Source: Williamsia sp. 1138 (lineage in GTDB: Bacteria; Actinomycetota; Actinomycetes; Mycobacteriales; Mycobacteriaceae). Taken from it: a stretch of DNA of 41,806 nt. Numbering within the stretch: position 1 is the first letter of the stretch; each line of letters begins with the position of its first letter. Location of the stretch: contig NZ_MJEJ02000017.1 of the NCBI RefSeq assembly GCF_002095435.2, positions 1 through 41,806 on the forward strand, read 5' to 3'. Of this stretch, positions 5,949-40,524 are shown piece by piece. The notes beneath the pieces are model-generated. The model had not been told where the DNA came from. It made no database searches and saw only the letters and a list, made by a program, of their open reading frames with translations. The position numbers and the translations under genes were made by a program.

Positions 5949-7361
<1,413 letters not shown>

Positions 7362-7394
7362 GCGGACGACGACGGACCGGTGGACAGATGAGTG

Positions 7395-9913: not shown

Positions 9914-10030
9914 ACACTCACGCTACTCATCGGAACCCTTGTTCCCAACCTTTGGACCCAGCCCGCCTCAAACCGATCGTGGGGCCTTCTGGCGACGTCC
10001 ACCTGGGGAGATGCTCGCCAGAACGACCCA

Positions 10031-11690: not shown

Positions 11691-11744
11691 GTGAGCCTTC
11701 CGTTCCGCTGCCGCAACAAGACCTCAGGCCCCCCGAGTGGCCCG

Positions 11745-12860
11745 CTAGGCGGCAACTTTCGACTCGACCTTAACACTGAACTGTGCGTCATCGGCCACCC
11801 AGGAATTGGGCAGTGACAGGCGCGCGATCTTGCGCCATGTCGAACCGATCTGGTGACTGAAACTGCCGGTGTTGTAAGGCAATCCATACCGTTCGCACAG
11901 TGCCTTGACCTCACCTGAGATTTCCGGGTAGCGGTTGGCCGGAATGTCAGGGAACAGGTGGTGTTCGATCTGATGCGACAGGTTTCCGCTCATGATGTGG
12001 AACAAGGGCGTTCCGGTGATGTTGGCCGAACCGAGCATCTGACGCAGGTACCACTGACCGCGGGTCTCGTTCGCGGTTTCTTCCTGGGTGAAAGTCTGTA
12101 CCCCGGAAGGGAAGTGGCCGCAGAAGATGATCGAGAACGTCCACAGGTTCCGCACGAGGTTCGCACTGGCGTTGCCGACGAGGGTGGTGACGAAGAACGG
12201 GCCGGTGAGCGCCGGATACACGACGTAGTCCTTGAGTACCTGTCGGCTGGCCTTGCGCCACATTCCCTTGACCAGGCCTTTGACGTCGGTCCACTTGCGC
12301 TTGCCCTGGACGATGTTCTCGGCCTCGAGGTCGTGGAGCATCACGCCCCACTCGAACAGGATCATCAGTGCGCTGGCGTAGACGAGGTTGCCCAGGTAGT
12401 AGGGGTTCCAGGACTGGTCACGGTCCATGCGCAGGATGCCGTACCCGATGTCGCGGTCTTGGCCGACGATGTTGGTGAAGGTGTGGTGCATGTAATTGTG
12501 GCTGTGACGCCATTGATCGGCAGGACAGACTGTGTCCCATTCGAACTCGCGAGAGTTCAGGCTCGGCTCACGCATCCAGTCGTATTGGCCGTGCATGACG
12601 TTGTGACCGATTTCCATGTTGTCGAGGATCTTCGACACGCTCAATGCGCCGACGCCGGCCAGCCAGGCGGGCGGGATGAACGGGAAGTACATGAGGGCGC
12701 GGCCCGCGACCTCGAGGGTGCGCTGCGCTTTGATGATCGAGTAGATGTAGTCGCGGTCCTTGTCGCCGAGGTCGGCGACAACGCGGGCCTTGAGGGCATC
12801 GAGCTCCCGGCCGAGCTCGTCGACCTGGTCTTCGGTGAGGACTAGTTCCGTGGTTGTCAT
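11745..12860 (-). CDS. desA3: Acyl-CoA/acyl-lipid desaturase, DesA3-like
   Basis: A 371-residue membrane di-iron desaturase that would insert a cis double bond into long acyl chains. All three histidine boxes are present: H86-NVM-H90, H119-S-H121...H125-H126 and H296-QIE-H300-H301. An extra His (H249) sits in CGHFPSGVQTF. The order reductase-desaturase with a TetR regulator divergent from them resembles the M. tuberculosis Rv3230c-desA3 pair, which makes oleate from stearoyl-CoA. The ATG is preceded by AAGGAG. It starts 59 bases after the reductase stop and should share its promoter. Confidence 0.9.
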   Translation of the reverse strand: MTTTELVLTEDQVDELGRELDALKARVVADLGDKDRDYIYSIIKAQRTLEVAGRALMYFPFIPPAWLAGVGALSVSKILDNMEIGHNVMHGQYDWMREPSLNSREFEWDTVCPADQWRHSHNYMHHTFTNIVGQDRDIGYGILRMDRDQSWNPYYLGNLVYASALMILFEWGVMLHDLEAENIVQGKRKWTDVKGLVKGMWRKASRQVLKDYVVYPALTGPFFVTTLVGNASANLVRNLWTFSIIFCGHFPSGVQTFTQEETANETRGQWYLRQMLGSANITGTPLFHIMSGNLSHQIEHHLFPDIPANRYPEISGEVKALCERYGLPYNTGSFSHQIGSTWRKIARLSLPNSWVADDAQFSVKVESKVAA

Positions 12861-12919
12861 GGTGACTCCTTGGATAGCTGTCGGGTGGTGCGGGGGCTGA
12901 ACTCAGTACGTGATGACCG

Positions 12920-14005
12920 TCAGATGTCGATGACGCAGTCGCCGACGGGCTTGCTGATGCACAGCTGGATGTGTTTGTCGGACTCCGTGTCGGTCTCGCC
13001 GGTGAGGATGTTCTTCGTCAGGCCGGACTTCTTGACGGCGCTGCAGGAGAAACAGATCCCCATACGGCACCCGAACTCTGGTGTCAGACCGGCATTCTCG
13101 GCCTGTTCGAGTATCGAATCGCCGTTGTTCTGCGCTTCGGTGCCGCTCGCGGCGAAGCTGAGCCGGCCCTGCGCCGGAGCGTCGTCGTCGACGTCTGCCG
13201 GCGTGACGAGTACGAATTGCTCGGTGTGCAGGTTCGATTCCGCGCCGAGGCCGGCGAGATGGTCGGAGACCGATTCATGCAGGGCGGGTGGTCCGCAGAG
13301 GAACACCTGTGACGCGGCCAGGTCGAGGCCGGCGAGGTGATCGGGCCGGAAGTGGCCCCCGGTGTCCGACTCGGTGGTCGGTCTCGTGAAGTGGGTGGTG
13401 ATCGTCCAGTCCGGACGGGCCGCGGCGATGTCCGCCAGTTCGGATGCGTACGGGTGGTCCTCGGCGCTGCGTGTGTAGTGAACGAACGTGACGTCGCCGC
13501 GATGGTTCTCGTCTACAAGTGTTCTCAGCATTGAGAGTACGGGTGTAATGCCGCTGCCGCCGCTGATGAACAGGAGGGAATCGGGGCGCTCGGCAGGAAG
13601 GGTGAAGGTGCCGGTCGCGGGCTGCAGGCCCAGCACCTGGCCCGTCCTGATGTTCTCGCGCAGGTGCTTGGAGACGAATCCGTCTTCATGGCTGGTGAGG
13701 GTCAATTCGATGGTGCCGGGGGTGTGCGCGCTGCTCGCCGGCGAGTAGCAACGGCTGTGGCGCACCCCCTTGATGACGGTGCTGAGCTGCACAAACTGGC
13801 CGGCTTCGAAGCCAGTCCATTGCCGGGTCGGGCGCAAGGTCATCGTGACCGAGCGGGGGGACCGGCGATCGACGGCGACCACCTCGGCGCGCAGGTCGGT
13901 CCAGGTGATGCGTGGATCGACGAGCTCGAGGTAACGGTCGACGGGGTGTGGTGTCAGGGCTGCTTCGAGCACCGAACCGAAGAATCCGGAAAGTGACTTG
14001 GTCAT
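12920..14005 (-). CDS. Ferredoxin-flavin reductase, electron donor to the desaturase
   Basis: A 361-residue fusion of an FNR-like reductase and a plant-type [2Fe-2S] ferredoxin. The FAD-binding motif is R85-C-Y-S88, the NAD(P)-binding loop is G149-G-S-G-I-T-P with a later C237-G-P-P, and the cluster ligands are C313, C318, C321 and C349. It passes electrons from NAD(P)H to the di-iron desaturase encoded next, as Rv3230c does for DesA3. The ATG at 14005 has AAAGGA upstream. Its promoter lies in the intergenic region shared with the TetR gene, next to the operator-like site at 14026-14041. Confidence 0.92.
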   Translation of the reverse strand: MTKSLSGFFGSVLEAALTPHPVDRYLELVDPRITWTDLRAEVVAVDRRSPRSVTMTLRPTRQWTGFEAGQFVQLSTVIKGVRHSRCYSPASSAHTPGTIELTLTSHEDGFVSKHLRENIRTGQVLGLQPATGTFTLPAERPDSLLFISGGSGITPVLSMLRTLVDENHRGDVTFVHYTRSAEDHPYASELADIAAARPDWTITTHFTRPTTESDTGGHFRPDHLAGLDLAASQVFLCGPPALHESVSDHLAGLGAESNLHTEQFVLVTPADVDDDAPAQGRLSFAASGTEAQNNGDSILEQAENAGLTPEFGCRMGICFSCSAVKKSGLTKNILTGETDTESDKHIQLCISKPVGDCVIDI

Positions 14006-14025
14006 CCGTGTGTCCTTTCATTTCA

Positions 14026-14041
14026 GTGCACATCTGTACAC
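14026..14041. promoter_or_regulatory. Operator-like site A before the reductase-desaturase operon
   Basis: A near-palindrome of the form GTGCACA-TCT-GTACAC, 20 bases upstream of the reductase start. Thirteen of its sixteen bases recur in site B at 14132-14147, and only the three central bases differ. The likely binder is the TetR protein encoded next door. Confidence 0.6.
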
Positions 14042-14131
14042 AGACAGTGTGGCATCACCTGACCCCATCAAGTCAAGGAAACAATGTGTAACCGCCATCA
14101 CGTCCGGCGCGGTGCCTCCGAAATCCGGCGG

Positions 14132-14147
14132 GTGCACAGACGTACAC
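14132..14147. promoter_or_regulatory. Operator-like site B and -10 element of the TetR gene
   Basis: GTGCACA-GAC-GTACAC, the second copy of the site. Its right part overlaps TACACT (14143-14148), a good actinobacterial -10 hexamer placed seven bases before the GTG at 14156. The TetR messenger would therefore be leaderless and autorepressed. Confidence 0.6.
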
Positions 14148-14155
14148 TGACCTGC

Positions 14156-14869
14156 GTGTCGCGGACGTCAAAACATCACAGCTCGGGTACTCGCAGTACC
14201 CGGCGTGCTTCACCGTCGGTCGAGCGCCTCGACGATTCGACCCGCACCCGTGCCGAACAGAAGAGCCGGACCCGGCAGGCATTGCTCGATCAGACCCTCG
14301 AGCTGGTGGGTGAGCGCAGCTTCTCCTCGATCAGCCTGCGGGAGGTGACCAAGCGCGCCGGGATCGTCCCGACCGCGTTCTATCGTCATTTCGCGTCGAT
14401 GGAGGAGGTCGGGGTCACCCTGGTCGAGGACTCCATGCGGACGTTGCGTCGCATGCTGCGTGACGGCAGGCGTGATCTCGCGGCCCGGGCGGCCGTGCCC
14501 ACCGCGAAGGAGTCGCTGGCGGTGCTGGTGCGGCAGGCGCGCGCCAACGAGGCGCAGTTCCGTTTCCTCGTGCGCGAACAATACGGCGGGATCAGTGAGG
14601 TGCGCCGGGCGATCGACACCGAGCTCAAGCTGTTCTCCCGCGAACTGGCCATCGACCTGTCCCGGATCCCGGACCTGGCCGAGTGGCCCGCCGACGACCT
14701 GGAGGTGGCCGGAGATCTCATCGTCACGGTGATGCTCCACGCGGTCGCCGAGCTGGTCGAACTCGACCGCCGAAACACCAGAGAAGAGGACGAGCTCATC
14801 CTTCGAACCGAAAAGCAGCTGGTCATCGCCTTTCTCGGCATGGGGCGCTGGCAACCGTCCCAGGAGTGA
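14156..14869 (+). CDS. TetR regulator of the desaturase locus
   Basis: A regulator of about 237 residues. After a basic, disordered N-terminus of about 35 residues, the helix-turn-helix is clear (TRQALLDQTLELVGERSFSSISLREVTKRAGIVPTAFYRHF, in part), followed by a helical ligand-binding domain. The sequence around MEEVGVTLVEDSMRTLRRMLRDGR resembles the FabR/DesT-like group that senses acyl chains. It is divergent from the reductase-desaturase operon, and twin operator-like sites lie between them. I chose the GTG at 14156 because a -10 hexamer sits just upstream; an upstream ATG in frame (14084) would put the operator inside the gene. Confidence 0.87.
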   Translation: MSRTSKHHSSGTRSTRRASPSVERLDDSTRTRAEQKSRTRQALLDQTLELVGERSFSSISLREVTKRAGIVPTAFYRHFASMEEVGVTLVEDSMRTLRRMLRDGRRDLAARAAVPTAKESLAVLVRQARANEAQFRFLVREQYGGISEVRRAIDTELKLFSRELAIDLSRIPDLAEWPADDLEVAGDLIVTVMLHAVAELVELDRRNTREEDELILRTEKQLVIAFLGMGRWQPSQE

Positions 14870-15009
14870 TCGAGCTTCTCGTTCGTGAATCGGGCTAGGG
14901 GACAGAGCCATCTGTTCAGACCACACGGCTGCGTGGGGGTGTCGTACCCCATTAATATTGTTTCCCTTGAGCGGCCAGAGTCGGCCGCGCAGGTGCTGGG
15001 AGGCAACCG

Positions 15010-16518
15010 ATGGTCGAAGGTTCGCGGACGGGCACTCAATTCGGGGTCTATCGCCTCGACGCCCTGATCGGTCGCGGGGGGATGGGTGAGGTGTACCGCG
15101 CCTACGACACGGCGAAGGACCGTACCGTCGCTCTCAAGCTTCTGAACGTCGAGTTGGCGCAGGACCCGACCTATCAGGAGCGCTTTCGCCGGGAGTCGCA
15201 TGCGGCGGCGCGGCTACAGGAACCGCACGTCATACCCATCCACGACTGGGGCGAGATCGACGGCGTCCTGTACATCGACATGCGGCTCGTGACCGGCCAG
15301 GACCTGCGGGCAGCACTGCGCGAGGGTGGCGCGATGGATCCCGCCCGCGCCGTCAAGATCATCGAGCAGGTGGCCGGAGCCCTCGACGCCGCGCATGCCG
15401 ACGGGCTGATCCATCGGGACATCAAGCCGGAGAACATCATCCTGGCCGAAGGCGACTTCGCGTACCTCGTCGACTTCGGGATCGCCCACTCCGGCGACGA
15501 ATCGCAACTGACCGTCGCGGGGCTGGCGATCGGGTCGTACCGGTACATGGCGCCGGAGCGATTCGGCAACGATCGCGTCACCCCGATGGCAGACGTGTAC
15601 TCGCTGACCTGCGTACTGCACGAATGTCTCACCGGTTCGACGCCGCACCAGGCCGACACGATCAGTTCTGCGGTCAAGGCGCACGTGCTGAACCCGGCGC
15701 CGCAGCCCTCTCGTGTCCGACCGGGGGTTCCCGTCGGGTTCGATCAGGTCATCGCGCAAGGCCTCGAGAAGCGGCCCGAACATCGCTACCAGACCGCAGG
15801 TCAGCTCGCCGCTGCGGCGAGGGCTGCACTCACCGGCGCGAACATCCCTGCCCCGCAGACGATTGTGACCGGATTTCCCGGCGGCGGCTTCCCGCAGGCT
15901 CCGCCGACGGTTGCCGGGATGGCACCACCGGGTACCGGCCCGCAATACAACCCGACCATGTACAGCGGCCCGGTTGCTCCACCGCCGAACTTCGGTACGG
16001 GTCAGCAACCGGCGTACTTCACCGGACCCCAGCAGGGCGGCCCCGGCGCAGGGTCGCAGTCGAAAGGGATCATCGCCGCGCTGGTGGGCCTCATCGTGCT
16101 CGCTCTCGGTGGGCTCGCGGCCCTGTTGATCTGGTATGTCGGCTCGAAGGACGAGGCCGGTGACGACCCGGCGGTGGCGGTCAGCACCGTGACCGAAACC
16201 GCAGGTGGTCAGGTCCAGAACACCCAGGCCCCGGCACCCGCACCGGCGGCAGGCCCTCCGCCGGGCTCGACGCCGTGCCCGGCGGTGTACGGCCCGGCCG
16301 GCAACCTCTCAGGTTCGGCCATCGGCTCAGCGGTGACGAGCTGTGCTTTCGCAGAGGAAGTCCGGGTGAGCTATGCGGGGAGCGGTGCGCCCGCGCAGCC
16401 GCGCCAGGTCCTGGCGACGAGCCCGGTTACGGGTGTGACCTATGTGATGATGTGCACGCCGGCCGGATCTGCGGTCACCTGCACGGGCGGAGAAAACGCT
16501 GTTGTTCACCTTTTCTGA
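15010..16518 (+). CDS. Transmembrane Ser/Thr protein kinase, PknF/PknE-like
   Basis: A 502-residue receptor kinase. The cytosolic kinase domain (about 12-275) has the glycine loop GRGGMGEVY (21-29), the ATP-binding K43, the catalytic H135-R-D137-IKPEN, D155-F-G and MAPER. A Pro/Gly-rich juxtamembrane segment follows, then one membrane span (about 353-376, GIIAALVGLIVLALGGLAALL) and an outer domain of about 125 residues with several cysteines. This is the PknE/PknF layout of mycobacteria. The ATG at 15010 has GGGAGG upstream. It heads a set of four plus-strand genes whose other members include two lipoproteins, suggesting cell-envelope sensing. Confidence 0.93.
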   Translation: MVEGSRTGTQFGVYRLDALIGRGGMGEVYRAYDTAKDRTVALKLLNVELAQDPTYQERFRRESHAAARLQEPHVIPIHDWGEIDGVLYIDMRLVTGQDLRAALREGGAMDPARAVKIIEQVAGALDAAHADGLIHRDIKPENIILAEGDFAYLVDFGIAHSGDESQLTVAGLAIGSYRYMAPERFGNDRVTPMADVYSLTCVLHECLTGSTPHQADTISSAVKAHVLNPAPQPSRVRPGVPVGFDQVIAQGLEKRPEHRYQTAGQLAAAARAALTGANIPAPQTIVTGFPGGGFPQAPPTVAGMAPPGTGPQYNPTMYSGPVAPPPNFGTGQQPAYFTGPQQGGPGAGSQSKGIIAALVGLIVLALGGLAALLIWYVGSKDEAGDDPAVAVSTVTETAGGQVQNTQAPAPAPAAGPPPGSTPCPAVYGPAGNLSGSAIGSAVTSCAFAEEVRVSYAGSGAPAQPRQVLATSPVTGVTYVMMCTPAGSAVTCTGGENAVVHLF

Positions 16519-16519
16519 C

Positions 16520-17443
16520 GTGACAGGTTCCCGGGCGTCACGGCCGTCTGCGCTCGCCGCCGCCGTCGTGTGTGTGGCCCTGTCGGCGGCGGCGTGCACC
16601 GGTTCGGACGATCCGCCCGCATCAGTCTCGACGTCGCCCACCACCGTCACGGTGCCCAGTCCGAACCCGTCGGCTGATCCGGCGACGAGGACCTCGGCGG
16701 TCGCTTCCGACGTGCCCGGGTTCTCCCGCCGGCTGACGCAGAGTCTGCAGGCGATGCTGAACGAACAACCCGGTTCCGTCGGGATCGCCATCGGACCTGT
16801 CAACGGGACCACGCCTGCCCAACTGTTCGGTGACCTTCCGACCGAGGTGTCCTGGTCGACCATCAAGGTCCCGCTGGCCCTGGCTGCCCTGCGCAACGTC
16901 GGGGCAGTCGCGCAGCCCGACATCAACCTGGCCATCATGAACTCCGACAACGCTGCGGCGGAACGGCTCTGGGGGATGTTGGGCACGCCCACCGAGGCCT
17001 CGGCCGCGGTCACCGAAGTCCTTCGAGACGCGGGTGACACGACCACCATCGTGCAGTCACAAAAGGTTCGAGCCGGATTCACCGCCTTCGGGCAGACCGA
17101 ATGGAGCCTGGTCGACCAGGCTCGGTTCGCGTCACAGCTCCCGTGTATGCCCGACAGTGCGGGCATCCTGGAGCTGATGCGTGAGGTCGGGGGAACCCAG
17201 CAATGGGGCGCCCAATCGATCGAGGGGACCGCGGTCAAAGGTGGATGGGGTCCGCAGCCCGATGCCGAGGGGAATTACCTGGTGCGCCAGATGGCCGTGA
17301 TCCCCGCCGAGTCCGGAGACGTGGTGGTCACGATGGCCACGACGCCGGACAACGGGACCTTCGAGGACGGGACCGCCGTCCTCGACGACGTCGGTGCCTG
17401 GATAACGGAGAATCTCGAAGCGCTACCTGCGGGGCGATGTTGA
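16520..17443 (+). CDS. Lipoprotein with a beta-lactamase/PBP-like serine hydrolase fold
   Basis: A lipoprotein of about 307 residues (lipobox SAAAC, C26) with a Ser/Thr/Pro-rich linker and then a domain that carries the penicillin-recognising motifs: S113-T-I-K116, S142-D-N144 and K240-G-G242. The ExxLN motif of class A beta-lactamases is not seen in the expected omega-loop region, where FGQTEWSLVDQARF stands instead. It may be a carboxypeptidase-like or ligand-binding relative rather than a true beta-lactamase. The GTG at 16520 follows the kinase stop by one base; a TTG at 16502 is an alternative start. Its end overlaps the next gene. Confidence 0.8.
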   Translation: MTGSRASRPSALAAAVVCVALSAAACTGSDDPPASVSTSPTTVTVPSPNPSADPATRTSAVASDVPGFSRRLTQSLQAMLNEQPGSVGIAIGPVNGTTPAQLFGDLPTEVSWSTIKVPLALAALRNVGAVAQPDINLAIMNSDNAAAERLWGMLGTPTEASAAVTEVLRDAGDTTTIVQSQKVRAGFTAFGQTEWSLVDQARFASQLPCMPDSAGILELMREVGGTQQWGAQSIEGTAVKGGWGPQPDAEGNYLVRQMAVIPAESGDVVVTMATTPDNGTFEDGTAVLDDVGAWITENLEALPAGRC

Positions 17444-18162
17444 GTCGCGGGCGCAGGGCCGCCGTCGCACTCGTCGGGTCCGTCGTCGTGATCGCGGGGC
17501 TCGTGGCGTGCGGTGACGGCGAGCCGTCCGATCCGGGAAATCAACGGTCCGTGACCGTCGTCGGCAACGGGCAGGTCGAGGGGGCACCGGATACGCTGCG
17601 TGCCGACCTCGGCGTCGAGACCACCGGCGACGACGTTTCCACGGCCGTCAACGCGGCCAACCAGCAGATCGCGGCCATCACCGAGGCAGTGGTGAACGCC
17701 GGGGTACCCCGCGAGAACATCCAGACGCAGCAGGTCACTCTGAGTCCGGACTACTCCAATCCGGTGCCGGGCGGGTCCAGCCAGATCTCGGGATACCGGG
17801 CGACCAACTCGCTGCGGGTCGACATCACCGACCTGACCAAGGCATCGAACGTACTCGAAGTCGCTGTGGAGGCCGGAGGGAACTCGACGCGGATCAGCAA
17901 CGTCTCGTTTGTCATCGACGACGACTCCGATCTGGTGGTCAACGCCCGCGAGAAGGCCTTCAAGGACGCGCGCGATCGCGCCGATCAGTACGCCGGGCTC
18001 TCGGGCGACGAGTTGGGGAAGGTGCTGACCATCGACGAGACGTCCTCGGGCCAACAGGTGCAGGTGGGCGAACGGTCCGCGATGGACAGCAGTGCGGTGC
18101 CCCTGGAACCGGGTCAGCAGACGGTCAGCTTCTCGGTGACGGTGAAATGGCAACTGAAGTAA
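17437..18162 (+). CDS. SIMPL-domain (DUF541) lipoprotein
   Basis: A lipoprotein of about 241 residues with signal peptide and lipobox GLVAC. The mature part is a SIMPL/DUF541 domain, seen in RSVTVVGNGQVEGAPDTLRADLGVE, NAGVPRENIQTQQVTLSP, GYRATNSLRVDI and the closing VSFSVTVKWQL. Relatives form ring-like assemblies in the envelope, but the role is not settled. Its ATG (17437) overlaps the previous stop, so it is coupled to the beta-lactamase-like gene and belongs with the kinase upstream. The reading frame is open much further upstream, but that part is the other strand of overlap with the previous gene and not coding. Confidence 0.85.
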   Translation: MLSRGRRAAVALVGSVVVIAGLVACGDGEPSDPGNQRSVTVVGNGQVEGAPDTLRADLGVETTGDDVSTAVNAANQQIAAITEAVVNAGVPRENIQTQQVTLSPDYSNPVPGGSSQISGYRATNSLRVDITDLTKASNVLEVAVEAGGNSTRISNVSFVIDDDSDLVVNAREKAFKDARDRADQYAGLSGDELGKVLTIDETSSGQQVQVGERSAMDSSAVPLEPGQQTVSFSVTVKWQLK

Positions 18163-32308: not shown

Positions 32309-32402
32309 CCTCGACTGAACTTCAAACAAGATAACGGTGGGCTGTCACCTTTTTGATCTTCAGCGCGGTAGCGCCGTGAGATGGCCTCCAGGCGGTACAC
32401 GG

Positions 32403-32476
32403 TGCCCCCAGTCGGACTCGAACCGACACTTGGCGGATTTTAAGTCCGCTGCCTCTGCCGATTGGGCTATGGGGGC
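32403..32476 (-). tRNA. tRNA-Leu(UAA), with a short variable loop
   Basis: The minus strand folds as a full cloverleaf: acceptor GCCCCCA/TGGGGGC, anticodon stem GCGGA/TCCGC around CTTAAAA (anticodon TAA, reading TTA), T arm GTCGG-TTCGAGT-CCGAC and discriminator A. D-loop GG is present. The 3' CCA is not encoded (CCG follows). The variable loop is only five bases (CAAGT), while leucine tRNAs normally have a long arm, so the isotype rests on the anticodon alone. Confidence 0.88.
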
Positions 32477-32605: not shown

Positions 32606-32627
32606 TGGAGTGGCAGACTTGACTCCA
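32606..32627. promoter_or_regulatory. Inverted repeat at the TetR start
   Basis: TGGAGT (32606-32611) and ACTCCA (32622-32627) are separated by ten bases, ending in the ATG. A second inverted repeat, CCATA/TATGG, lies at 32591-32608. Either could be a repressor site. Confidence 0.4.
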
Positions 32628-33301
32628 TGTCTGACGTTTCTTCTCGACGGAGCCGCGGCCGACCACCGGGACCGGGGGTCGACCCCGAAGCTCGCCGTGA
32701 GCAATTGCTTGACGCGGCCGAAGCCGAGATCGCCGCTCATGGAACCGATTTTGGTCTCGCGGGAGTCGCAAGCCGAGCGGGACTCACCAGGTCGGCCGTC
32801 TATGCGGCCTTCGCTGATCGCGATGATCTACTGACCGAGCTGACCCGCAGGCACACCGACCGCATCATCGTGGGGATCGCCTCGGCGCTCAACGATGTCG
32901 ACGGCCCACGCGAGCAGACGCGAGCAACGGTTGACGTGCTGGCCCGCTGGATGGAAGAGAACAGCAGGCTCGCGGCTGTGCTGGCGCCCAGAATGCAGTC
33001 CGGCGTCGGGGACTCGCATGTCACGGGCTTTCTCGAACAGGTGCTCCAGGTCGGGTTCGAGCAGGTAGGCGGCAATCCGCGGGCGGCGGCGCCGTGGGCG
33101 CGCGCGCTCGTGGGAGCGATCTGGACGACTGTCGCCTGGTGGGGAAAGGCGCGAACAATGGATCGCGCTGAACTCGTCGACCACGTGACGGACCTGGTCT
33201 GGGAAGGGTTTGCCGGCGCGGGCGGGGCCGGTATCCGGTTGCCGGAGATGCAATTACCCATCTCGAACGATGCGCGGGTGCTTGACGTGCTGGAACAATA
33301 A
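32627..33301 (+). CDS. TetR regulator of the MpaB-like cluster
   Basis: A 224-residue regulator. The N-terminus is basic and Pro/Gly-rich (SRRSRGRPPGPG), then the helix-turn-helix (REQLLDAAEAEIAAHGTDFGLAGVASRAGLTRSAVYAAFADRDDL, in part) and a ligand-binding domain with two tryptophan-rich helices (WARALVGAIWTTVAWWGK). It is the first of a plus-strand series. Its stop codon TAA lies within a perfect 21-bp palindrome that also covers the next gene's start, so it probably controls that gene and possibly the whole cluster. Confidence 0.9.
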   Translation: MSDVSSRRSRGRPPGPGVDPEARREQLLDAAEAEIAAHGTDFGLAGVASRAGLTRSAVYAAFADRDDLLTELTRRHTDRIIVGIASALNDVDGPREQTRATVDVLARWMEENSRLAAVLAPRMQSGVGDSHVTGFLEQVLQVGFEQVGGNPRAAAPWARALVGAIWTTVAWWGKARTMDRAELVDHVTDLVWEGFAGAGGAGIRLPEMQLPISNDARVLDVLEQ

Positions 33302-33318
33302 AGACACCATGTCTTTAT
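33298..33318. promoter_or_regulatory. Perfect 21-bp palindrome at the TetR/MpaB junction
   Basis: Arms ATAAAGACA (33298-33306) and TGTCTTTAT (33310-33318) surround CCA. The left arm contains the TetR stop codon and the right arm ends on the first two bases of the next ATG. Length and perfect symmetry suit a TetR-type operator. Confidence 0.7.
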
Positions 33319-34495
33319 GACTGCTTCCGATATCACCGGTGCGACGAATTGGGACAGTGTGCGGGCGCGTCACCCAGAGCTCGTGGACAAGCTGGACGCA
33401 GGGCTGGGTCAGGGCGACCCGCTCGCGGAAGCCGCGATATCGGAGATGGTCGGACTCGCTGACTTCGGCTGGCGGCAGGTCACGCGCATCCTCGAAGACC
33501 CACTCGGCCGGATGGGTGAAGCTCCGCCCGCGTTGCGCGCACTTCTCGATACCGCGTCGTCGCCCCCTCCCTGGTTCGAACAAGCTGTCGCAGAGGCCGG
33601 GGGACGTGCTTGGTGGAAGTTCGGCACTCTGCAGTCGAGCACGCTGTATCAATCGCTGATCTACGGCTACCAAGCCCGCGGATTCGTACGCCCGCTCGTG
33701 GCCACTGGCCAGTTGGCCGACCACACCTACGACCGCGTTCTCAGCACCGGACGCTGGGTCGCGCTCGCGACCGCGCCGGGACAAATGGCGCCCGGCAGCC
33801 CGGGGTGGTCGCAAACGCTGAAAATTCGACTCGTTCACGCCATGGTCCGTCACAGTCTCCTGGTTGATGAGGACTGGAATGTCGCCGAGTGGGGCGTCCC
33901 GATCAATCAGACCTACAGCGCCCTGACCATCGGTGGAGGGTTTCTCGCCCTGCCGATGACGGTGGCCGGCGACCTGGGGATCCACTACTCAGCGGCCGAA
34001 CGTGAGGCGATCGCCCACCTGTGGCGTTGGATCGGATGGGTGATCGGTGTCGACGATGCGCTGCTCCCCAAGAACTTCGCCGCGGCGCAACAACTGTTCG
34101 ACATCGGTGCGCAGTTCGAACTAGAGCCCGACGAGTCGTCGAAGATGTTGACGCGAGCCCTGTTACGTGAGGGATACCGAATCGAACTGCCACTCGTGCC
34201 CGATCCGGTGACGGCAATCGTGAACGTGATGTTGCGGCCTGTGTTGTCGACGTCCTTCTCCGCGATCTCGACCCGATGGGTGGAGAAGCCGGCCGCAGGC
34301 AAGATGGGCTTGCGACGCTCCCCGTTGCACCATCTGGTCGATGTCGCTCGCCCTGCCGTGCGGCTGCGAGAGGTGGTGCGCGCGATTGGCCTGCTCGGCA
34401 ACGAGAGTCAGGTGGTCAACCGGGAAATGCGTACCGTCATGCGTGGTCTGGGAATGAACGCCGCGGAGATCGACAAGATCAAGACGGTGGCGTGA
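33317..34495 (+). CDS. MpaB/DUF2236 family oxygenase-like protein
   Basis: A 392-residue protein of the DUF2236 family, which includes the heme rubber oxygenase Lcp and the fungal MpaB. The conserved stretch K-I-R171-L-V-H174-A-M-V-R178-H179 corresponds to the heme-pocket helix of these enzymes, and helices around GGRAWWKFGTLQSSTLYQS and GVDDALLPKNFA fit the family. Unlike secreted Lcp it has no Tat or Sec signal, so it should work inside the cell on an unsaturated or terpenoid-like substrate; this is inference. It carries one TTA codon. It starts directly after the TetR gene and its stop touches the next ATG. Confidence 0.85.
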   Translation: MTASDITGATNWDSVRARHPELVDKLDAGLGQGDPLAEAAISEMVGLADFGWRQVTRILEDPLGRMGEAPPALRALLDTASSPPPWFEQAVAEAGGRAWWKFGTLQSSTLYQSLIYGYQARGFVRPLVATGQLADHTYDRVLSTGRWVALATAPGQMAPGSPGWSQTLKIRLVHAMVRHSLLVDEDWNVAEWGVPINQTYSALTIGGGFLALPMTVAGDLGIHYSAAEREAIAHLWRWIGWVIGVDDALLPKNFAAAQQLFDIGAQFELEPDESSKMLTRALLREGYRIELPLVPDPVTAIVNVMLRPVLSTSFSAISTRWVEKPAAGKMGLRRSPLHHLVDVARPAVRLREVVRAIGLLGNESQVVNREMRTVMRGLGMNAAEIDKIKTVA

Positions 34496-35671
34496 ATGGT
34501 GCGGGTACTCGAGTTGGCTCGCGATCTGCCGTGCACGGCAGAGCAGGCGTGGCGGTTGATGACCGATCCGGATGAGATGAATCGTTGGTCGAGCGCAAAG
34601 ATCGTCGGAAACGATCCGGGGGTCGACGATCGATTCGACCGTGCGGGTGCCCTGCGCACTGTGATCACGCCGGCGCCGATCCGCTCGGTGCTGCGCGAGG
34701 TCGTGGTCGCAGCGGAGCAGCCGGAGGTTTTCGCGTATCGGGTCTACGCGGGCCCGGCGACCGTGCGACACCACAACGGACGCATCGAGATCGCCGAGAC
34801 CGCCACGGGTAGCACGGTTCGGTGGACTGTCGAGATGGCGTTCGTCGTGCCGGGCCTCGGTGCTCTCGTGGAGCGTGGACTGCGCAGAGAACTCGGCGCG
34901 TCCTTGCAGAAGCTTGCCGACGAATCGCTGACCCCGCCGGTGGCGGCATCGAACCCGGTCGCGGATCGCCGCTCTCGAGATGTCGTGGATCTGCAGTCGC
35001 TGCGGGCGACGGCGATCTCGACGCTGGCAGAGCAGCAGTCGGTAGCGGCCGAGTTGCGCGACGACGAGGATCCCAAGCAGTGGTTCGCTCGCGTGTACGC
35101 GATCGTGACCGAGGAGATGATCGGCCTCGTCGATCGCGGCGACTTGCAGTACCCGGACTGGGCTTTGCGTCTCATTCCGGATTTCCACGTGCACTACCTA
35201 CGAAACCTGCAGGGGTATATGCGCGGTGAGGAGGTCGAGGAGCCGTGGCAGGCGGCCTGGTCTCGGTGTGAGCAGACCGACCCGAGGCACCCCATCATGC
35301 CGATCATCAGTGGCATGCTCGCGGGGGTACGGGCGCACATCGAGTGCGACCTCCCGCGGTCACTCGCCGACGTGTATCTCGAACACTATCGAATCACCCA
35401 CCACTACAAGGACTTCCGCTCGGACTACCTGGCCATGGCCATAGTGTTCGGAATCGCTTCTGATCGGTTGCTGGAGCAGATGCCGCAGGAATACAAACCG
35501 CTGTGGGTGCGCGCGTCGGTCCGCCTCCCGGCTGAGATCCGCTCGGCGCTGCTCAACAAGCGCACCTTCGACATCCCGAGACATCGGCTCGCCGCATTCA
35601 GCCGCGGCTACGACATCGTGCTTCAGGCGCCGGAGAACACCGGCGAGACCGCCGACTCGATACGTGAGTGA
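34496..35671 (+). CDS. SRPBCC domain fused to a DUF5995 domain
   Basis: A 391-residue two-domain protein. Residues about 1-145 form an SRPBCC/START-like lipid-binding cup (VLELARDLPCTAEQAWRLMTDPDEMNRW, in part; ending in a long amphipathic helix ERGLRRELGASLQKLADE). After a short linker, residues about 180-360 match DUF5995, with the family segment PIISGMLAGVRAHIECDLPRSLADVY and His/Tyr-rich YRITHHYKDFRSDY. DUF5995 has no known function. The gene starts with no gap after the MpaB-like gene, so they are co-translated and probably act on the same hydrophobic compound. Confidence 0.8.
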   Translation: MVRVLELARDLPCTAEQAWRLMTDPDEMNRWSSAKIVGNDPGVDDRFDRAGALRTVITPAPIRSVLREVVVAAEQPEVFAYRVYAGPATVRHHNGRIEIAETATGSTVRWTVEMAFVVPGLGALVERGLRRELGASLQKLADESLTPPVAASNPVADRRSRDVVDLQSLRATAISTLAEQQSVAAELRDDEDPKQWFARVYAIVTEEMIGLVDRGDLQYPDWALRLIPDFHVHYLRNLQGYMRGEEVEEPWQAAWSRCEQTDPRHPIMPIISGMLAGVRAHIECDLPRSLADVYLEHYRITHHYKDFRSDYLAMAIVFGIASDRLLEQMPQEYKPLWVRASVRLPAEIRSALLNKRTFDIPRHRLAAFSRGYDIVLQAPENTGETADSIRE

Positions 35672-35687
35672 TCGCCGCGAGGACCGG

Positions 35688-35718
35688 TTGACGACCCTAA
35701 GATAGTGCTGATAACTTA
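35688..35718 (+). promoter_or_regulatory. Promoter and inverted repeat of the MMPL gene
   Basis: TTGACG (35688-35693) and TAACTT (35712-35717) form a -35/-10 pair with 18 bases between. TAAGATA (35698-35704) and TAACTTA (35712-35718) form a 7-7-7 inverted repeat with one mismatch, covering the -10. This suits repression by the TetR encoded after the MMPL gene. Confidence 0.55.
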
Positions 35719-35748
35719 ACGGCGATCACTCAGGGAATCGCCGAAGGG

Positions 35749-38046
35749 ATGTCTCCAGTGCTCTCGTCACTTGCTCGCGGTGTGATCGCCGCGCCCAGAC
35801 GTGTTCTCGGCGGCGCGCTGCTGGTTCTCATCATCTGTGGAGTGCTGGGTTCGTCTGTTGCGGCCAATCTTTCGGGCGGCGGATTCTCCGATCCGGACTC
35901 CGAGTCCGCGCAGGCCAATCAGGTACTCGCCGACACGTTCGCGCGCGGTGGTCTGCAGGTTGTCATCCGGTTGCATCAGAGCGGCACCGCGGACATCGTC
36001 GACAGCAACACCGCACGTGCTGCGGGGGAGACCATCGTCCGGGAACTGGAAGGGATGAGTTTCGTCGAGGATCCCATCCTCTCTGCCTGGACGAATCCGG
36101 AAGCGGCAGGCGCGCTGGTTTCCCGCGACCGCACCTCGGGACTGATCGTCACCACGGTGTCCGGCGGCGACAAAGAGGCAGAGGCAAACGGCAAGAACAT
36201 CGACGACCGCTTCACTGATCCGTCCTTCACCTCGCAGTATCCGGGCGTCGACGTGCTCGTGGGCGGGCAGGCCCTGGTGTACTCGCAGGTGAGTGAACAG
36301 ACGAGCCATGATCTGTTCATTGCCGAAGCGATCGCGATCCCCATCAGCTTCCTGTTGCTCATCTGGGTGTTCGGCGGGCTGGTCGCGGCTGTGCTGCCCT
36401 TGGCGATCGGCATCTTCGCGATCATCGGAACCACTGCCGTACTGCGCGGATTCACGATGTTCGCGGATGTCTCGGTATTCGCGCTCAACCTCACCACCGC
36501 GCTCGGGCTGGCGCTGGCGATCGATTACACCCTGCTGATCATCAACCGGTATCGCGAAGAGGTGCAAGGCGGTCGAGACCGCAACGACGCGCTGACCGTG
36601 ACCGTGATGACCGCAGGCAGAACCGTGCTCTTCTCAGCAGTGACGGTGGCGCTCTCGCTGGCGGCGATGGCAATCTTCCCCATGTACTTCCTACGCTCGT
36701 TCGCCTACGCCGGTCTGGCGGTGGTGGCTCTGGCCGCAGCCGCCGCGCTGATCATCGCGCCGGCGATCATCGCTGTGCTCGGCGCCCGTATCGATGCGCT
36801 CGACGTGCGCAAACCGATCCGGAAGCTGTTGGGACGCAGCGAGCCACATATCCCTGAGCCCGAAGAATCCATGTGGTATCGGTCGACCCGGTTCGTGTTA
36901 CGTCACGCCGTGCCGGTGGGATTGTCGGTGGTGGTACTCCTGCTCGTCTTGGGTGCACCCTTCCTCGGGATCAAGTTCGGTTATCCCGACGATCGGGTGC
37001 TCCCGACCTCTGCTTCCACCCACGTACTCGGGGACGAGCTGCGCGAAGACTACGCGCAGAATGCCTCGGCCACAGTCACGATCGTCATCCCGGATACGCG
37101 CGGCTTCGACGACGCCGCGCTCAGTGGTTACGCGAAGAATCTGTCACAGGTGGCCGAGGTGACCGCCGTGAGCACGCCCGTCGGATCTTTCGTCGACGGA
37201 CAGGGTGCGGGCGGGCCCGGGCCCGACATGGCCAAAGGCGATGCCGCCCTGATCACCGTGTCGTCCACGGTGGATCCGTTCTCCGACAGCGGTCGTGCGC
37301 AACTCGACGCCCTGCGTGAGGTGTCACCGCCTGATGGTGCCGCGACACTGTTCAGTGGTCTGGCGCAACAGAATGTCGACAACGTCGACAGCATCGTCGA
37401 CCACCTGCCCGAGGTGTTCGCGGTGATCGTCGTGACGACTTTCGTGTTGCTGTTCCTGCTGACCGGGTCGGTGGTCTTGCCGCTCAAGGCGTTGGTGCTC
37501 AACGTGTTCTCGTTGACGGCGACGTTCGGCGCGATGGTGTGGATCTTTCAGGACGGCAACATCGCCGGACTGGGGACCACGACGACCGGGACCCTGATCG
37601 CCAACATGCCCGTGCTCATGTTCTGTATCGCGTTCGGTCTGTCGATGGATTACGAGGTCTTTCTGCTCTCCCGGATCCGGGAGGAGTGGCTCAAGTCGGG
37701 CCGGACTCGTGCGGACAACGACCACGCCGTGGCCTACGGTCTGGCCCGCACCGGCCGGGTGGTCACTGCGGCCGCACTGCTGATGGCTGTGGTGTTCGCA
37801 GGAATCGCGTTCTCCCAGGTGTCCTTCATGAGGATGTTCGGACTCGGCTTGGCCCTGGCCGTGCTGATGGACGCCACCCTGATCAGGATGTTGCTCGTAC
37901 CGGCCTTCATGAAGATCGCCGGCCGGGCGAACTGGTGGGCGCCCGCGCCGCTGCGCAAGTTCCACGACAGATTCGGGTTGAGTGAAGAAGGTGGCCATGA
38001 CAGTCGATCGACTCCGCAGGCGCAGGTCCCCGCGCGGCTCGGGTGA
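35749..38046 (+). CDS. MMPL/RND-family membrane exporter
   Basis: A 765-residue transporter with two halves, each having one span, a large outer loop and about five more spans. The proton-relay regions ALAIDYTLLIINRYREE in the first half and FGLSMDYEVFLLSRIREEW in the second carry the family's Asp-Tyr pairs. MmpL proteins export lipids and siderophore-like compounds in mycolata. It is short of the long C-terminal tail of MmpL3. A GAAGGG ribosome site precedes the ATG. It follows the SRPBCC-DUF5995 gene by 77 bases with its own promoter and overlaps the TetR gene at its end. Confidence 0.92.
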   Translation: MSPVLSSLARGVIAAPRRVLGGALLVLIICGVLGSSVAANLSGGGFSDPDSESAQANQVLADTFARGGLQVVIRLHQSGTADIVDSNTARAAGETIVRELEGMSFVEDPILSAWTNPEAAGALVSRDRTSGLIVTTVSGGDKEAEANGKNIDDRFTDPSFTSQYPGVDVLVGGQALVYSQVSEQTSHDLFIAEAIAIPISFLLLIWVFGGLVAAVLPLAIGIFAIIGTTAVLRGFTMFADVSVFALNLTTALGLALAIDYTLLIINRYREEVQGGRDRNDALTVTVMTAGRTVLFSAVTVALSLAAMAIFPMYFLRSFAYAGLAVVALAAAAALIIAPAIIAVLGARIDALDVRKPIRKLLGRSEPHIPEPEESMWYRSTRFVLRHAVPVGLSVVVLLLVLGAPFLGIKFGYPDDRVLPTSASTHVLGDELREDYAQNASATVTIVIPDTRGFDDAALSGYAKNLSQVAEVTAVSTPVGSFVDGQGAGGPGPDMAKGDAALITVSSTVDPFSDSGRAQLDALREVSPPDGAATLFSGLAQQNVDNVDSIVDHLPEVFAVIVVTTFVLLFLLTGSVVLPLKALVLNVFSLTATFGAMVWIFQDGNIAGLGTTTTGTLIANMPVLMFCIAFGLSMDYEVFLLSRIREEWLKSGRTRADNDHAVAYGLARTGRVVTAAALLMAVVFAGIAFSQVSFMRMFGLGLALAVLMDATLIRMLLVPAFMKIAGRANWWAPAPLRKFHDRFGLSEEGGHDSRSTPQAQVPARLG

Positions 38047-38713
38047 GCAGCTGAGGGCCGAGATCCTCACCGCGGCAACCGACCTGCTGCTGGAGAGCGG
38101 TGACGAGTCAGCAGTCTCGATCAGGGCTGTCGCCAACCGGGTGGGCGTCACGCCGCCGTCCATCTACATCCACTTCGCGGACAAGGACACCCTCATCGAT
38201 GAGGTTGTCGCACACTACTTCACCCGGCTCGACGAGGTCATGCGGCAAGCCGGTGCCGAGCACGACAACACCTGGGAGGCCGCACACGCCCAGGGGATGG
38301 CGTATGTGCGTTTCGCTGTCGAGAACGCCGAGCTGTACCGGGTGGCGACCATGAAGGTCTGCGCCGAGGGGACCGACGCAGACGAGGTGCTGAGCGACTC
38401 GGCCTTTGTGCACTTCGCCGAAACCATCGAGCGACTCATGGACGAGGGCTTCGTCGACAAGGGCGATCCCACGCCGGTGGTGATGGAGTTGTGGACGGCC
38501 GCACACGGCGTAGCCACGCTGATGATCGCCAAGCCCTACCTCCCGACGGGGGAGAACTACGAACTGGCCGACCGGGTCCTGACGTCGGTGTGCCTGGGAC
38601 GGGCGATCAAGGATGTCATCGGTGGCGATGTGGGTCCCCACGAGATCAGGAAGTTCGTGCTCGAGCAGCGGGCGGGACTCGGGAGCGAATCCACCCCACC
38701 GATTCCAGGGTGA
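37997..38713 (+). CDS. TetR regulator, second of the cluster
   Basis: A regulator of about 238 residues. The helix-turn-helix is LRAEILTAATDLLLESGDESAVSIRAVANRVGVTPPSIYIHFADKDTL (in part), followed by a TetR_C-type domain with YVRFAVENAELYRVATMKVC. The ATG at 37997 has GAAGAAGG upstream and lies 50 bases inside the end of the MMPL gene in another frame, so the two are coupled. A GTG at 37982 is an alternative start. It is likely to repress the MMPL promoter at 35688-35718. Confidence 0.88.
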   Translation: MTVDRLRRRRSPRGSGEQLRAEILTAATDLLLESGDESAVSIRAVANRVGVTPPSIYIHFADKDTLIDEVVAHYFTRLDEVMRQAGAEHDNTWEAAHAQGMAYVRFAVENAELYRVATMKVCAEGTDADEVLSDSAFVHFAETIERLMDEGFVDKGDPTPVVMELWTAAHGVATLMIAKPYLPTGENYELADRVLTSVCLGRAIKDVIGGDVGPHEIRKFVLEQRAGLGSESTPPIPG

Positions 38714-38723
38714 ACACGTTCTA
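38710..38723. promoter_or_regulatory. KstR-like half-palindromic box before the SDR gene
   Basis: GTGAACACGTTCTA fits the known KstR operator pattern T-N2-AAC-N2-GTT-N2-A at every fixed base except the first. It lies 20 bases upstream of the SDR start and overlaps the TetR stop. The AAC-N2-GTT core is short, so this is only suggestive. Confidence 0.35.
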
Positions 38724-38743
38724 GTTTCGCTAGTGTCTGCCGC

Positions 38744-39505
38744 ATGGGCGTACTCGATGGAAAAGTTGCACTGATCACCGGCGGTGGCAAAGGAGTGGGT
38801 CTGGGCATCTCCCAGGCACTGAGCAAAGAAGGCGCGGACATCTTCATCTGCGGTCGGCACACCAAGGCACTGGCGACCGCGACCGAACAGCTGCAGGCCA
38901 ATGGGGTCCGAGCCGAATACCTCAAGGGCAACGTCAGCGACGGGGACGACTGCTCCGCGATAGTCGCGGCCTGCGCCGATCGCCTCGGCGGGGTCGACAT
39001 CTTGGTCAACAACGCCAACGACGCGATGCCGATACCGCTCCTGGAAGTGAGCGACGACGATTTCACGCGGTTCTTCCAGACCGGTCCTCTGGCGGTGTTG
39101 CGACTGATGAAGGCCTGCCACCCACTGATGGTCGCCCGGGGTGGGGGGTCGGTGATCAACCTCGTGACGTCCGCCGCGGTCCGGTGGGACATGGCCACCT
39201 TCGGTCCGTACGCAGCGGTCAAAGAGGCGACGCGGTCGCTGACCCGCGCTGCCGGCTGTGAATGGGGCAAAGACAACATCCGGGTCAATGCGATTGCGCC
39301 GCACGCCATGACGCCGTCGCTGCAGTGGTGGACCGAGACCTACCCGGAGGAGGCCGATGCGTTCGTCAAGAGCATCCCGCTCGGACGCATCGGTGATCCC
39401 GAGGCCGATATCGGCCGGATCGCGGTCTTTCTCGCGAGCCAAGACGCGAGTTATCTGAGCGGCGTCACCATTCCTGCCGATGGCGGGCACAGTCGCTGGG
39501 GCTGA
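38744..39505 (+). CDS. Short-chain dehydrogenase/reductase
   Basis: A 253-residue classical SDR that oxidises or reduces a hydroxyl/keto group with NAD(P). The cofactor loop is T12-G-G-G-K-G-V-G19, the catalytic residues are S143, Y156 and K160, and the C-terminus ends in the usual ADGGHSRWG. The NNAG motif reads NNAN, a mild deviation. SDRs of this type in mycolata act in sterol, lipid and terpenoid breakdown. It is the last gene of the MpaB-MMPL run, 30 bases after the TetR gene. The substrate is unknown. Confidence 0.88.
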   Translation: MGVLDGKVALITGGGKGVGLGISQALSKEGADIFICGRHTKALATATEQLQANGVRAEYLKGNVSDGDDCSAIVAACADRLGGVDILVNNANDAMPIPLLEVSDDDFTRFFQTGPLAVLRLMKACHPLMVARGGGSVINLVTSAAVRWDMATFGPYAAVKEATRSLTRAAGCEWGKDNIRVNAIAPHAMTPSLQWWTETYPEEADAFVKSIPLGRIGDPEADIGRIAVFLASQDASYLSGVTIPADGGHSRWG

Positions 39506-39651: not shown

Positions 39652-40524
39652 GTGCGTGAAAGCAGCAATCCGGTGATGCGTGGTGTTGTGCGCAGCAACC
39701 AAGGCCCGGGCGGGTATGCCGGCTTTGGCGCTGGTGCGGCCGGCGCCGGCCAGGCCGCGCAATGGAATCAGCAGGCGGGTCAGCCCCAGGCCGATCCGTA
39801 TGCACGTCCGGGGCAACCGGCCGGATCTCGAACCCTGACCATCGACGACGTCGTGACGAAGACTGCAGCCACCCTTGGTGTGCTCATTCTGTCGGCCGCT
39901 CTGTCGTACTACTTCACGAGCGTGAACGAGTCCTTGGCGATGCCGCTCATGCTCGTGGGCGCGCTCGGCGGCCTCGCGCTGGTGTTGGTCGCGACCTTTG
40001 GTCGCAAGCAAGACAATCCGGCGATCGTGCTCAGCTACGCGGTTCTCGAGGGCCTGTTCGTCGGCACCATCTCGTACGTGTTCGCCAACTGGGTGGTCGC
40101 CGGTGATGTCAGTGCCGGTGCGCTGATCGGCCAGGCCGTACTCGGTACCTTCGGTGTCTTCGGCGGCATGCTGATCGTCTACAAGACCGGTGCCATCCGC
40201 GTCACACCGCGATTCACCCGCATGATCTTCGCGGGCCTGATCGGTGTCCTGGTGCTCATCCTGGGCAACCTGATCATCGGTTTCTTCAACGGTGGTTCCG
40301 GTCTGGGACTGCGTGACGGTGGTCCGATCGCGATCATCTTCTCGCTCGTGTGCATCGCTCTCGCCGCATTCAGCTTCCTCATCGACTTCGATGCCGCGGA
40401 TCAGCTGATCCGTTCCGGCGCTCCGTCGAAGGCGGCCTGGGGCATCGCGCTCGGCCTGACCGTCACCCTGGTCTGGTTGTACGTCGAGATCCTGCGCCTG
40501 CTGAGTTACTTCAACTCGGACTAG
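39652..40524 (+). CDS. Bax inhibitor-1/YccA family membrane protein
   Basis: A 290-residue membrane protein of the BI-1/YccA/TMBIM family with a Gly/Ala/Gln-rich cytosolic N-terminus of about 60 residues and seven hydrophobic spans. In bacteria some members modulate the FtsH protease and others leak calcium; the role in actinobacteria is not established. Recognisable parts are YAVLEGLFVGTISYVFANW and the late IDFDAADQLIRSGAPSKAAW, the family's Asp-containing region. The GTG at 39652 has GAGAAGGG upstream. It is transcribed towards a strong terminator shared with the thiolase. Confidence 0.9.
   Translation: MRESSNPVMRGVVRSNQGPGGYAGFGAGAAGAGQAAQWNQQAGQPQADPYARPGQPAGSRTLTIDDVVTKTAATLGVLILSAALSYYFTSVNESLAMPLMLVGALGGLALVLVATFGRKQDNPAIVLSYAVLEGLFVGTISYVFANWVVAGDVSAGALIGQAVLGTFGVFGGMLIVYKTGAIRVTPRFTRMIFAGLIGVLVLILGNLIIGFFNGGSGLGLRDGGPIAIIFSLVCIALAAFSFLIDFDAADQLIRSGAPSKAAWGIALGLTVTLVWLYVEILRLLSYFNSD

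Follow-up and report, generated by a model that had tools for sequence, protein, structure and literature searches.

Gene content of the locus

The locus described here lies in a 41,806-nucleotide stretch of DNA from Williamsia sp. 1138 (contig NZ_MJEJ02000017.1; referred to as the window), which is contig C19 of a 6.08 Mb genome assembled in 54 contigs; the host is a soil actinobacterium. Between positions 32627 and 39505 of the window, six plus-strand genes follow one another at intergenic distances of 15, 0, 77, −53 (with the tetR2 start at 37994) and 30 nt. They encode (i) a TetR regulator (TetR1), (ii) an MpaB/DUF2236 protein (MpaB), (iii) a fusion of SRPBCC and DUF5995 domains (hereafter the fusion), (iv) an MMPL transporter, (v) a second TetR regulator (TetR2) and (vi) an SDR oxidoreductase. 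This order and these families, proposed in an earlier note on the window, were confirmed by gene calls and Pfam, the cut-offs of the respective families being exceeded by all six products. The same note regarded the genes as one co-regulated system and named independent regulation as an argument against that view. The sequence indicates separate control: the locus is, judging from the comparisons below, a modular slot with two units, each having its own promoter-like sequence and TetR site and each occurring alone, and not one co-regulated operon (Table 1).

Table 1. Predicted features of the locus and of its borders (coordinates of the window).
Feature	Position	Strand	Remarks
tetR1	32627..33301	+	both TetR_N and TetR_C_32 exceed their cut-offs; predicted to repress mpaB locally
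predicted mpaB promoter	33282..33310	+	TTGACG, 17-bp spacer, CACCAT; hexamers assigned by eye; transcription predicted to start at or close to the ATG
predicted TetR1 operator	33300..33316	.	AAAGACA-N3-TGTCTTT; shares bases with the tetR1 stop codon and is directly followed by the mpaB ATG
mpaB-like gene (MPAB_Lcp_cat/DUF2236)	33317..34495	+	predicted heme oxygenase, non-Lcp branch
SRPBCC + DUF5995 fusion gene	34496..35671	+	start codon immediately 3' of the mpaB stop codon
predicted MMPL promoter	35688..35716	+	TTGACG, 17-bp spacer, ATAACT; hexamers assigned by eye
predicted TetR2 operator	35698..35718	.	TAAGATA-N7-TAACTTA; imperfect, conserved palindrome
MMPL/RND transporter	35749..38046	+	GTG at 35758 is a possible true start, judging from relatives
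tetR2	37994..38713 (alternative start 37982)	+	overlaps the MMPL 3' end; next to MMPL in most slot loci examined
SDR oxidoreductase	38744..39505	+	Pfam over cut-off
tRNA-Leu(taa)	32401..32476	-	ARAGORN; left border of the variable slot
Bax-inhibitor-1-like gene	39652..40524	+	right slot border; context, outside the system

Palindromes had been reported at the gene junctions. This holds for two of the five (33298-33318 and 35698-35718) and not for the other three; the MMPL/TetR2 junction contains imperfect repeats only (71-82%) and a repeat search at the TetR2/SDR junction found none. A 13-bp perfect inverted repeat at the DUF5995/MMPL junction (35665-35677/35720-35732) was rejected as an operator, as it is not kept in sister species, and is probably incidental. 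To the right of the locus, a thiolase gene accompanies the Bax-inhibitor-like gene (Pfam).

Distribution of the gene set

Recurrence in other genomes, the test that had been set beforehand, was observed in other species and genera, namely in Williamsia, Gordonia and Antrihabitans. Among 101 genomes searched, a close MpaB orthologue (at least 50% identity) was present in eight of the nine genomes of the genus Williamsia (not in G003) and in G019, G022 and G048; the remaining matches showed at most 36% identity, except for the second piece of the split G001 gene. All six genes were detected in G000 (the genome of the window), G001, G002 and G007, with mpaB and the fusion gene of G001 split over reading frames, and five genes, the fusion being the missing one, in G004, G005, G006 and G008. 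G019 carries mpaB-MMPL-tetR2, G022 and G048 carry tetR1-mpaB-fusion with no adjoining MMPL gene, and in G025 and G050 the fusion gene adjoins the Bax-inhibitor gene and there is no close mpaB. The pairing of mpaB with MMPL was seen in eight Williamsia genomes (in four of them with the fusion gene in between) and in G019. The SDR gene, which had been counted as a member of the set, is indeed present in Williamsia and was found in no other genus among the loci examined.

A non-exhaustive scan of named genomes, based on two short peptide patterns and the alignment of the fusion, yielded 28 loci. Of these, 13 have the arrangement tetR1-mpaB-fusion; the mpaB-fusion locus L092 and the tetR1-fusion locus L091 both lie at contig starts. 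The order tetR1-fusion-MMPL was identified in a Williamsia bin (L093) and in W. maris (L094), and fusion-MMPL in W. herbipolensis (L102). In four further Williamsia loci a lone fusion gene stands beside the Bax-inhibitor gene, and in Mycolicibacillus (L101) tetR1 lies on the strand opposite to the fusion gene. The last five loci contain none of the other five genes at an orthologue-like level; one of them (L108) was matched at residues 2-135 only, i.e. in the SRPBCC half. The fusion is encoded by two of the 396 genomes of a thin phylum sample, the window's own included. A second fusion-bearing genome outside the family (G676) has no other gene of the set within 12.5 kb. None of the plasmid records encodes it.

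The mpaB gene is split over reading frames in the slot loci L071 (Williamsia sp. 1135, where the fusion gene is split as well), L172 (G414) and L188 (G356), which may reflect either decay or sequencing error.

In 59 Gordonia genomes we detected the mpaB orthologue in 38 (40 genes) and the fusion in 21. Judging by coordinates, the fusion gene is directly 3' of mpaB in 20 of the 21 cases; the remaining fusion gene, in G832, has its first base at contig position 39. The neighbourhoods of 36 of the 40 mpaB genes were compared (G833 was left out, as were G828, G829 and G831, in which the fusion gene is next to mpaB by coordinates only): MMPL was the next gene in 17, the fusion in 17 and neither in two (L169, L178). 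Two genomes (G406, G442) have one mpaB of each type, MMPL-linked and fusion-linked. The linkage of mpaB with the fusion gene occurs also in Williamsia and Antrihabitans. In the mpaB tree (46 rows), one group (100/100) unites the fusion-linked genes of Gordonia, and a second (91/87) the slot genes of both Williamsia and Gordonia; long branches lead to G019 and Antrihabitans, whose position is unsure. The frameshifted G001 genes were left out of alignments A1-A3, and L087 and L092 out of A3; L071, L172 and L188 (the latter two with split mpaB, by the length filter) were omitted from the trees. Neither the trees nor the residue counts include six duplicate Gordonia loci.

The slot between tRNA-Leu and the Bax-inhibitor gene

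The loci that end in the Bax-inhibitor gene represent one common genomic place. tRNA-Leu(taa) was present in 28 of the 34 Bax-inhibitor-linked slot loci scanned (L078 among them is a short contig), sometimes at a distance (3 kb off in L080 and L118). All slot variants are drawn from one small gene set. The fuller types are tetR1-mpaB-fusion-MMPL-tetR2-SDR, the same without the fusion, mpaB-MMPL-tetR2, and tetR1-mpaB-MMPL (L155); the others are tetR1-fusion-MMPL, fusion-MMPL, the fusion alone, and MMPL-tetR2 alone.

The cassette-type loci of Gordonia and Antrihabitans sit elsewhere, and tRNA-Leu was found in none of those scanned. With a crude custom gene caller, 23 cassette-type loci fell into 12 neighbourhood groups, across which no conserved neighbour of the Gordonia cassette was found; ten proteins encoded beside the Gordonia cassettes are of mixed kinds, one of them without a family.

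Two side observations concern these surroundings. In Williamsia sp. CHRR-6 (L074), the sequence matching window positions 6075-18162 adjoins tRNA-Leu(taa), and about 14 kb of the window (18.2-32.4 kb) are absent; because of this absence, the tRNA neighbourhood may be an insertion place. The cassette of Gordonia malaquae (L086) is followed on its 3' side (9199-12679) by an iron-uptake-like set of FTR1 permease, imelysin-cupredoxin and Dyp-peroxidase genes, homologues of which are also 3' of the cassette in L084 and L085.

The putative TetR1 operator

The junction between tetR1 and mpaB contains the palindrome ATAAAGACA-cca-TGTCTTTAT (33298-33318), which is conserved across genera. Its 17-bp part AAAGACA-N3-TGTCTTT spans the −10 region of mpaB and ends at or just before the ATG. 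The upstream region of mpaB consists of TTGAC, a 17-bp spacer and a −10-like CAnnnT, with the start codon 7-8 nt further in most loci. Because of this spacing, and because the palindrome occupies the place of a ribosome-binding site, the mpaB message is predicted to be leaderless; leaderless messages are common in this bacterial group.

Each locus was scored by its best match within a stretch of 180 bp around the first gene, and the site was considered present at up to 3 mismatches. By this measure 28 of the 32 loci that have tetR1 contain it, vs 1 of the 26 that do not (L096); L180, whose upstream gene is past the contig end and whose tetR1 state is unknown, was left out of the operator counts. 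Fisher's test gave 6e-11, a value to be taken as indicative only. Random 180-bp stretches of the same loci contained a match of this quality in 30 of 5,900 cases, part of which arise because the stretches cover the site itself. Of the 28 tetR1 loci having the site, 25 show TTGAC at one fixed distance from the palindrome. Genome-wide, at up to 1 mismatch, the site occurs once in 9 of 13 genomes, always at mpaB; the remaining four have no such match, their own sites deviating at 2-3 positions, and the backwards-pattern control gave 0. In the genome of the window, 33300-33316 is the sole site at this threshold.

In the Williamsia bin and W. maris, mpaB is lost and tetR1 kept, and the gene preceded by the TetR1-type element is now that of the fusion. 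Three species without tetR1 (W. herbipolensis, W. deligens and W. serinedens) keep TTGAC-N17-CAnnAT and not the palindrome (by eye). No operator was seen by eye upstream of tetR1 itself in seven Williamsia sequences. The sequence supports the palindrome, whose presence goes with tetR1, as the predicted TetR1 operator.

In three loci without mpaB, a very short reading frame directly follows the TetR1-type site (L094:7947-7985, L093:807-845, L101:7930-7959) and stops right at the start of the fusion gene or a few bases short of it; perhaps these are leaderless leader frames remaining from mpaB. Just 5' of the fusion gene, L096 and L098 show a promoter-like TTGACA-N17 and the palindrome GACAAC-N4-GTTGTC abutting the start codon, with no tetR1 match in the stretch, and another regulator may act there.

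The putative TetR2 operator

The MMPL gene of the window and of most relatives is preceded by the promoter-like sequence TTGAC-N17-(A/T)TAACT, conserved even in loci without the fusion gene. A second palindrome, TAAGTTA-N7-TAACTTA (TAAGATA-N7-TAACTTA in the window), lies across it. At up to 2 mismatches, this site was detected in 26 of 27 loci with tetR2 (the exception, L158, has 5) vs 0 of 4 without it (5, 5, 7 and 8 mismatches), and in 7 of 1,550 random stretches; L124, L125 and L129 were left out of the count, the MMPL N-terminus being unmatched in the first two. A 20-base form occurs once per genome, before MMPL, in 15 of 17 genomes and is absent from G019 (variant site) and G188 (no tetR2); the core occurs once in the genome of the window. 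Since each site tracks its own regulator, TetR1 and TetR2 most likely control different promoters, although read-through from mpaB into MMPL may occur.

One locus or two neighbours

The comparisons support two regulated units, a linkage of mpaB with the fusion gene in many places and a linkage of mpaB with MMPL in one place. As a tentative interpretation, held at slightly less than even confidence, we read the whole as a modular oxidation-plus-transport locus with two switches. Most likely it would serve to oxidise, upon induction, a hydrophobic and probably unsaturated compound, and a pump would respond to a second signal; the suggestion of the earlier note that the genes could oxidise, carry and export a terpenoid or lipid is likewise an inference.

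A number of observations weigh against this interpretation. MMPL is not adjoining in 19 Gordonia cassette-type and two Antrihabitans loci, MMPL-tetR2 occurs without mpaB (L117), and the fusion without mpaB is found in other Williamsia, in Mycolicibacillus and in Mycobacterium. All mpaB-MMPL pairs are in one conserved genomic place, and for this reason shared descent, not function, could explain them. The mpaB gene is split over frames in G001, G356 and G414. As to the first switch, G004, G005, G006 and G008 keep tetR1 and mpaB with a degraded palindrome (4-6 mismatches), L096 has a 2-mismatch site without a tetR1 match in the stretch examined. The P values are limited by the fact that the motifs were read from the loci counted and that these loci are related.

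The confinement of the pairs to one place, the existence of each unit without the other and the separateness of promoters and operators would also be expected of two unrelated neighbours: MMPL-TetR2 as a resident envelope-lipid or stress pump, and TetR1-MpaB-SRPBCC/DUF5995 as an independent oxidation cassette sharing its place. We regard this explanation as a serious but rather doubtful one. It does not readily account for the slot holding, in different lineages, only members of the same small gene set, nor for the fact that the neighbour of MMPL is the fusion gene in W. maris and W. herbipolensis and mpaB in certain other species.

MpaB and related oxygenases

MpaB was matched by MPAB_Lcp_cat (PF09995, DUF2236) with 66 bits (cut-off 23), a domain that it has in common with the rubber oxygenase Lcp (5O1L/5O1M). 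It aligns with Lcp of Streptomyces K30 at E 7e-7 alone and 2e-12 as a profile. R140, T144, R171, H174 and R178, which correspond to the Lcp pocket residues Arg164, Thr168, Arg195, His198 and Arg202, are invariant in 46 of 46 rows. The distal heme ligand of Lcp is Lys167 (PMC5522427). None of the 46 MpaB relatives has a Lys in this place (S, A, G, N, E or R are found instead), and the place of Glu148, where the alignment is gapped, is taken by Pro in 45 and Ser in one. As the heme residues are kept and Lys167 and Glu148 are not, MpaB is probably a heme protein with an active site different from that of Lcp. Within the MpaB family, these proteins define a branch that is distinct from Lcp and has no distal lysine.

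Lcp also offers a parallel in regulation: its TetR-type regulators LcpR and LcpRB act, as is predicted here, on a palindrome upstream of an oxygenase gene. However, the LcpRB site, given as TATGTTAAT-N2-AAAATCACA in PMC8235351, is unlike the TetR1 site. Among MpaB-family proteins of related genera, Nro1 of Gordonia sp. J1A is described in PMC12724181 as a b-heme oxygenase (by its spectrum) acting on nitrile rubber. By this description Nro1 is membrane-bound, has 323 aa and keeps a Lys (K71), whereas the present MpaB has 392 aa and a Ser there. The same text tells of the C=C cleavage of a farnesyl chain by fungal MpaB in mycophenolic acid biosynthesis; that protein shares the family name and catalytic domain (Pfam description of PF09995) and, compared by description, differs in being fungal and bound to the endoplasmic reticulum.

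These parallels raise the question of a rubber- or terpene-degrading catabolic locus, in which MpaB would start the breakdown of a polymer or alkene growth substrate. The degradation of nitrile rubber by Nro1 and the existence of TetR-controlled lcp genes (PMC12724181, PMC8235351) speak for it. We consider it very improbable: no obvious secretion signal is visible at the MpaB N-terminus (by eye only, no predictor), Lcp K167 and E148 are missing, and no conserved catabolic neighbours were found. We know of no SRPBCC-DUF5995 or MMPL partner of Lcp. Bacterial heme oxygenases that cleave C=C bonds have reportedly been described by Purwani and others.

The genome of the window contains twenty PF09995 (MpaB/Lcp) matches. 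Some lie at contig ends and look like duplicates (those of C33, C34, C35 and C45 have one score), and two are perhaps parts of one gene (C45:422616-423271).

The fusion and the MMPL transporter

The fusion scored 62.7 bits with the SRPBCC family Polyketide_cyc2 (PF10604, cut-off 27.4) and 65.6 bits with DUF5995 (PF19458, cut-off 27), and both domains were matched in all 25 aligned members (DUF5995 at E≤0.001). Its AH-x3-D stretch contains a His (H281) and an Asp (D285) that are also found in the aligned stand-alone DUF5995 proteins. A sequence comparison of the DUF5995 half with the PDB revealed no significant relative (one weak match when searched alone); the profile of the fusion matched PDB entries in its SRPBCC half, with further weak matches above E 0.01.

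The transporter scored 265.5 bits with MMPL (PF03176, cut-off 20.5), and its closest solved structure is the trehalose monomycolate exporter MmpL3 (E 1.4e-93), over nearly the whole length. Two Asp-Tyr pairs, AIDY (from residue 257) and SMDYEVF (from residue 632), align with those of MmpL3, and we take them to be the proton path, as in that protein. By pattern as written, the first motif is present in 29 of 29 relatives and the second in 25 of 29. With about 765 aa, the transporter is without the long C-terminal part of MmpL3. A longer MmpL3-like paralogue is encoded elsewhere in the genome (G000:C45:133942-136101).

The host genera are mycolic-acid bacteria, and this, together with the relationship to MmpL3, would suit a modification of envelope lipids: MpaB and the fusion would work on one of the cell's own unsaturated lipids, for delivery to the envelope by MMPL. 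We judge this quite unlikely, given that the patchy occurrence within genera (38/59 Gordonia) and the TetR-repressed promoter suit an inducible, not a structural, function and that the score with the MmpL3 equivalog NF052608 (387.8 bits) is far from its cut-off (1400).

Proposed mode of action

In the modular oxidation-plus-transport interpretation, TetR1 is predicted to bind AAAGACA-N3-TGTCTTT, which covers the start point of mpaB and its −10 region, and to block the leaderless mpaB-SRPBCC/DUF5995 message until an inducer releases it. TetR2 is likewise predicted to bind TAAGTTA-N7-TAACTTA over the MMPL promoter, and would separately control MMPL-tetR2 and, in Williamsia, SDR. The TetR1 inducer may be a hydrophobic, probably unsaturated compound, which MpaB, as a b-heme oxygenase, would oxidise or cleave; the SRPBCC cup and the DUF5995 domain would bind, and perhaps convert, the MpaB product. 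The proton-driven MMPL pump would move a related lipid or product outwards once TetR2 is relieved.

A bolder version, which we consider unlikely though worth stating, is a two-protein pathway. The non-Lcp heme oxygenase MpaB would act on a hydrophobic isoprenoid or lipid by opening one of its C=C bonds. The fusion, in which DUF5995 would be an enzyme not so far recognised as such, would capture and convert the reactive product, of which an MmpL3-like pump under its own single-site TetR would dispose. Gordonia, Williamsia and Antrihabitans would then share a two-switch system not yet described, to which the pump is joined in slot loci only, and DUF5995 would be placed in a functional context for the first time.

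The protein families are known, and their combination and substrate appear to be undescribed; as the earlier note supposed, no description of this make-up was found in the literature searched (subscription papers were mostly outside the search). The locus offers two compact TetR-operator pairs in genera that are studied for their breakdown of rubber; one of the pairs is predicted to control a leaderless message. The TetR1 inducer, once found, would indicate the substrate directly. For DUF5995, the locus supplies an enzyme as conserved partner together with a regulator and a single-site switch, and with these at hand its role becomes testable. A full-text literature search yielded a single paper in which DUF5995 is named, with no function assigned (PMC11672594). 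There, Orf3 of the irumamycin cluster is a DUF5995 protein whose gene, as here, stands next to an oxidoreductase candidate (F420/flavin-dependent); unlike Orf3, the domain is in the present locus fused to SRPBCC and paired with MpaB.

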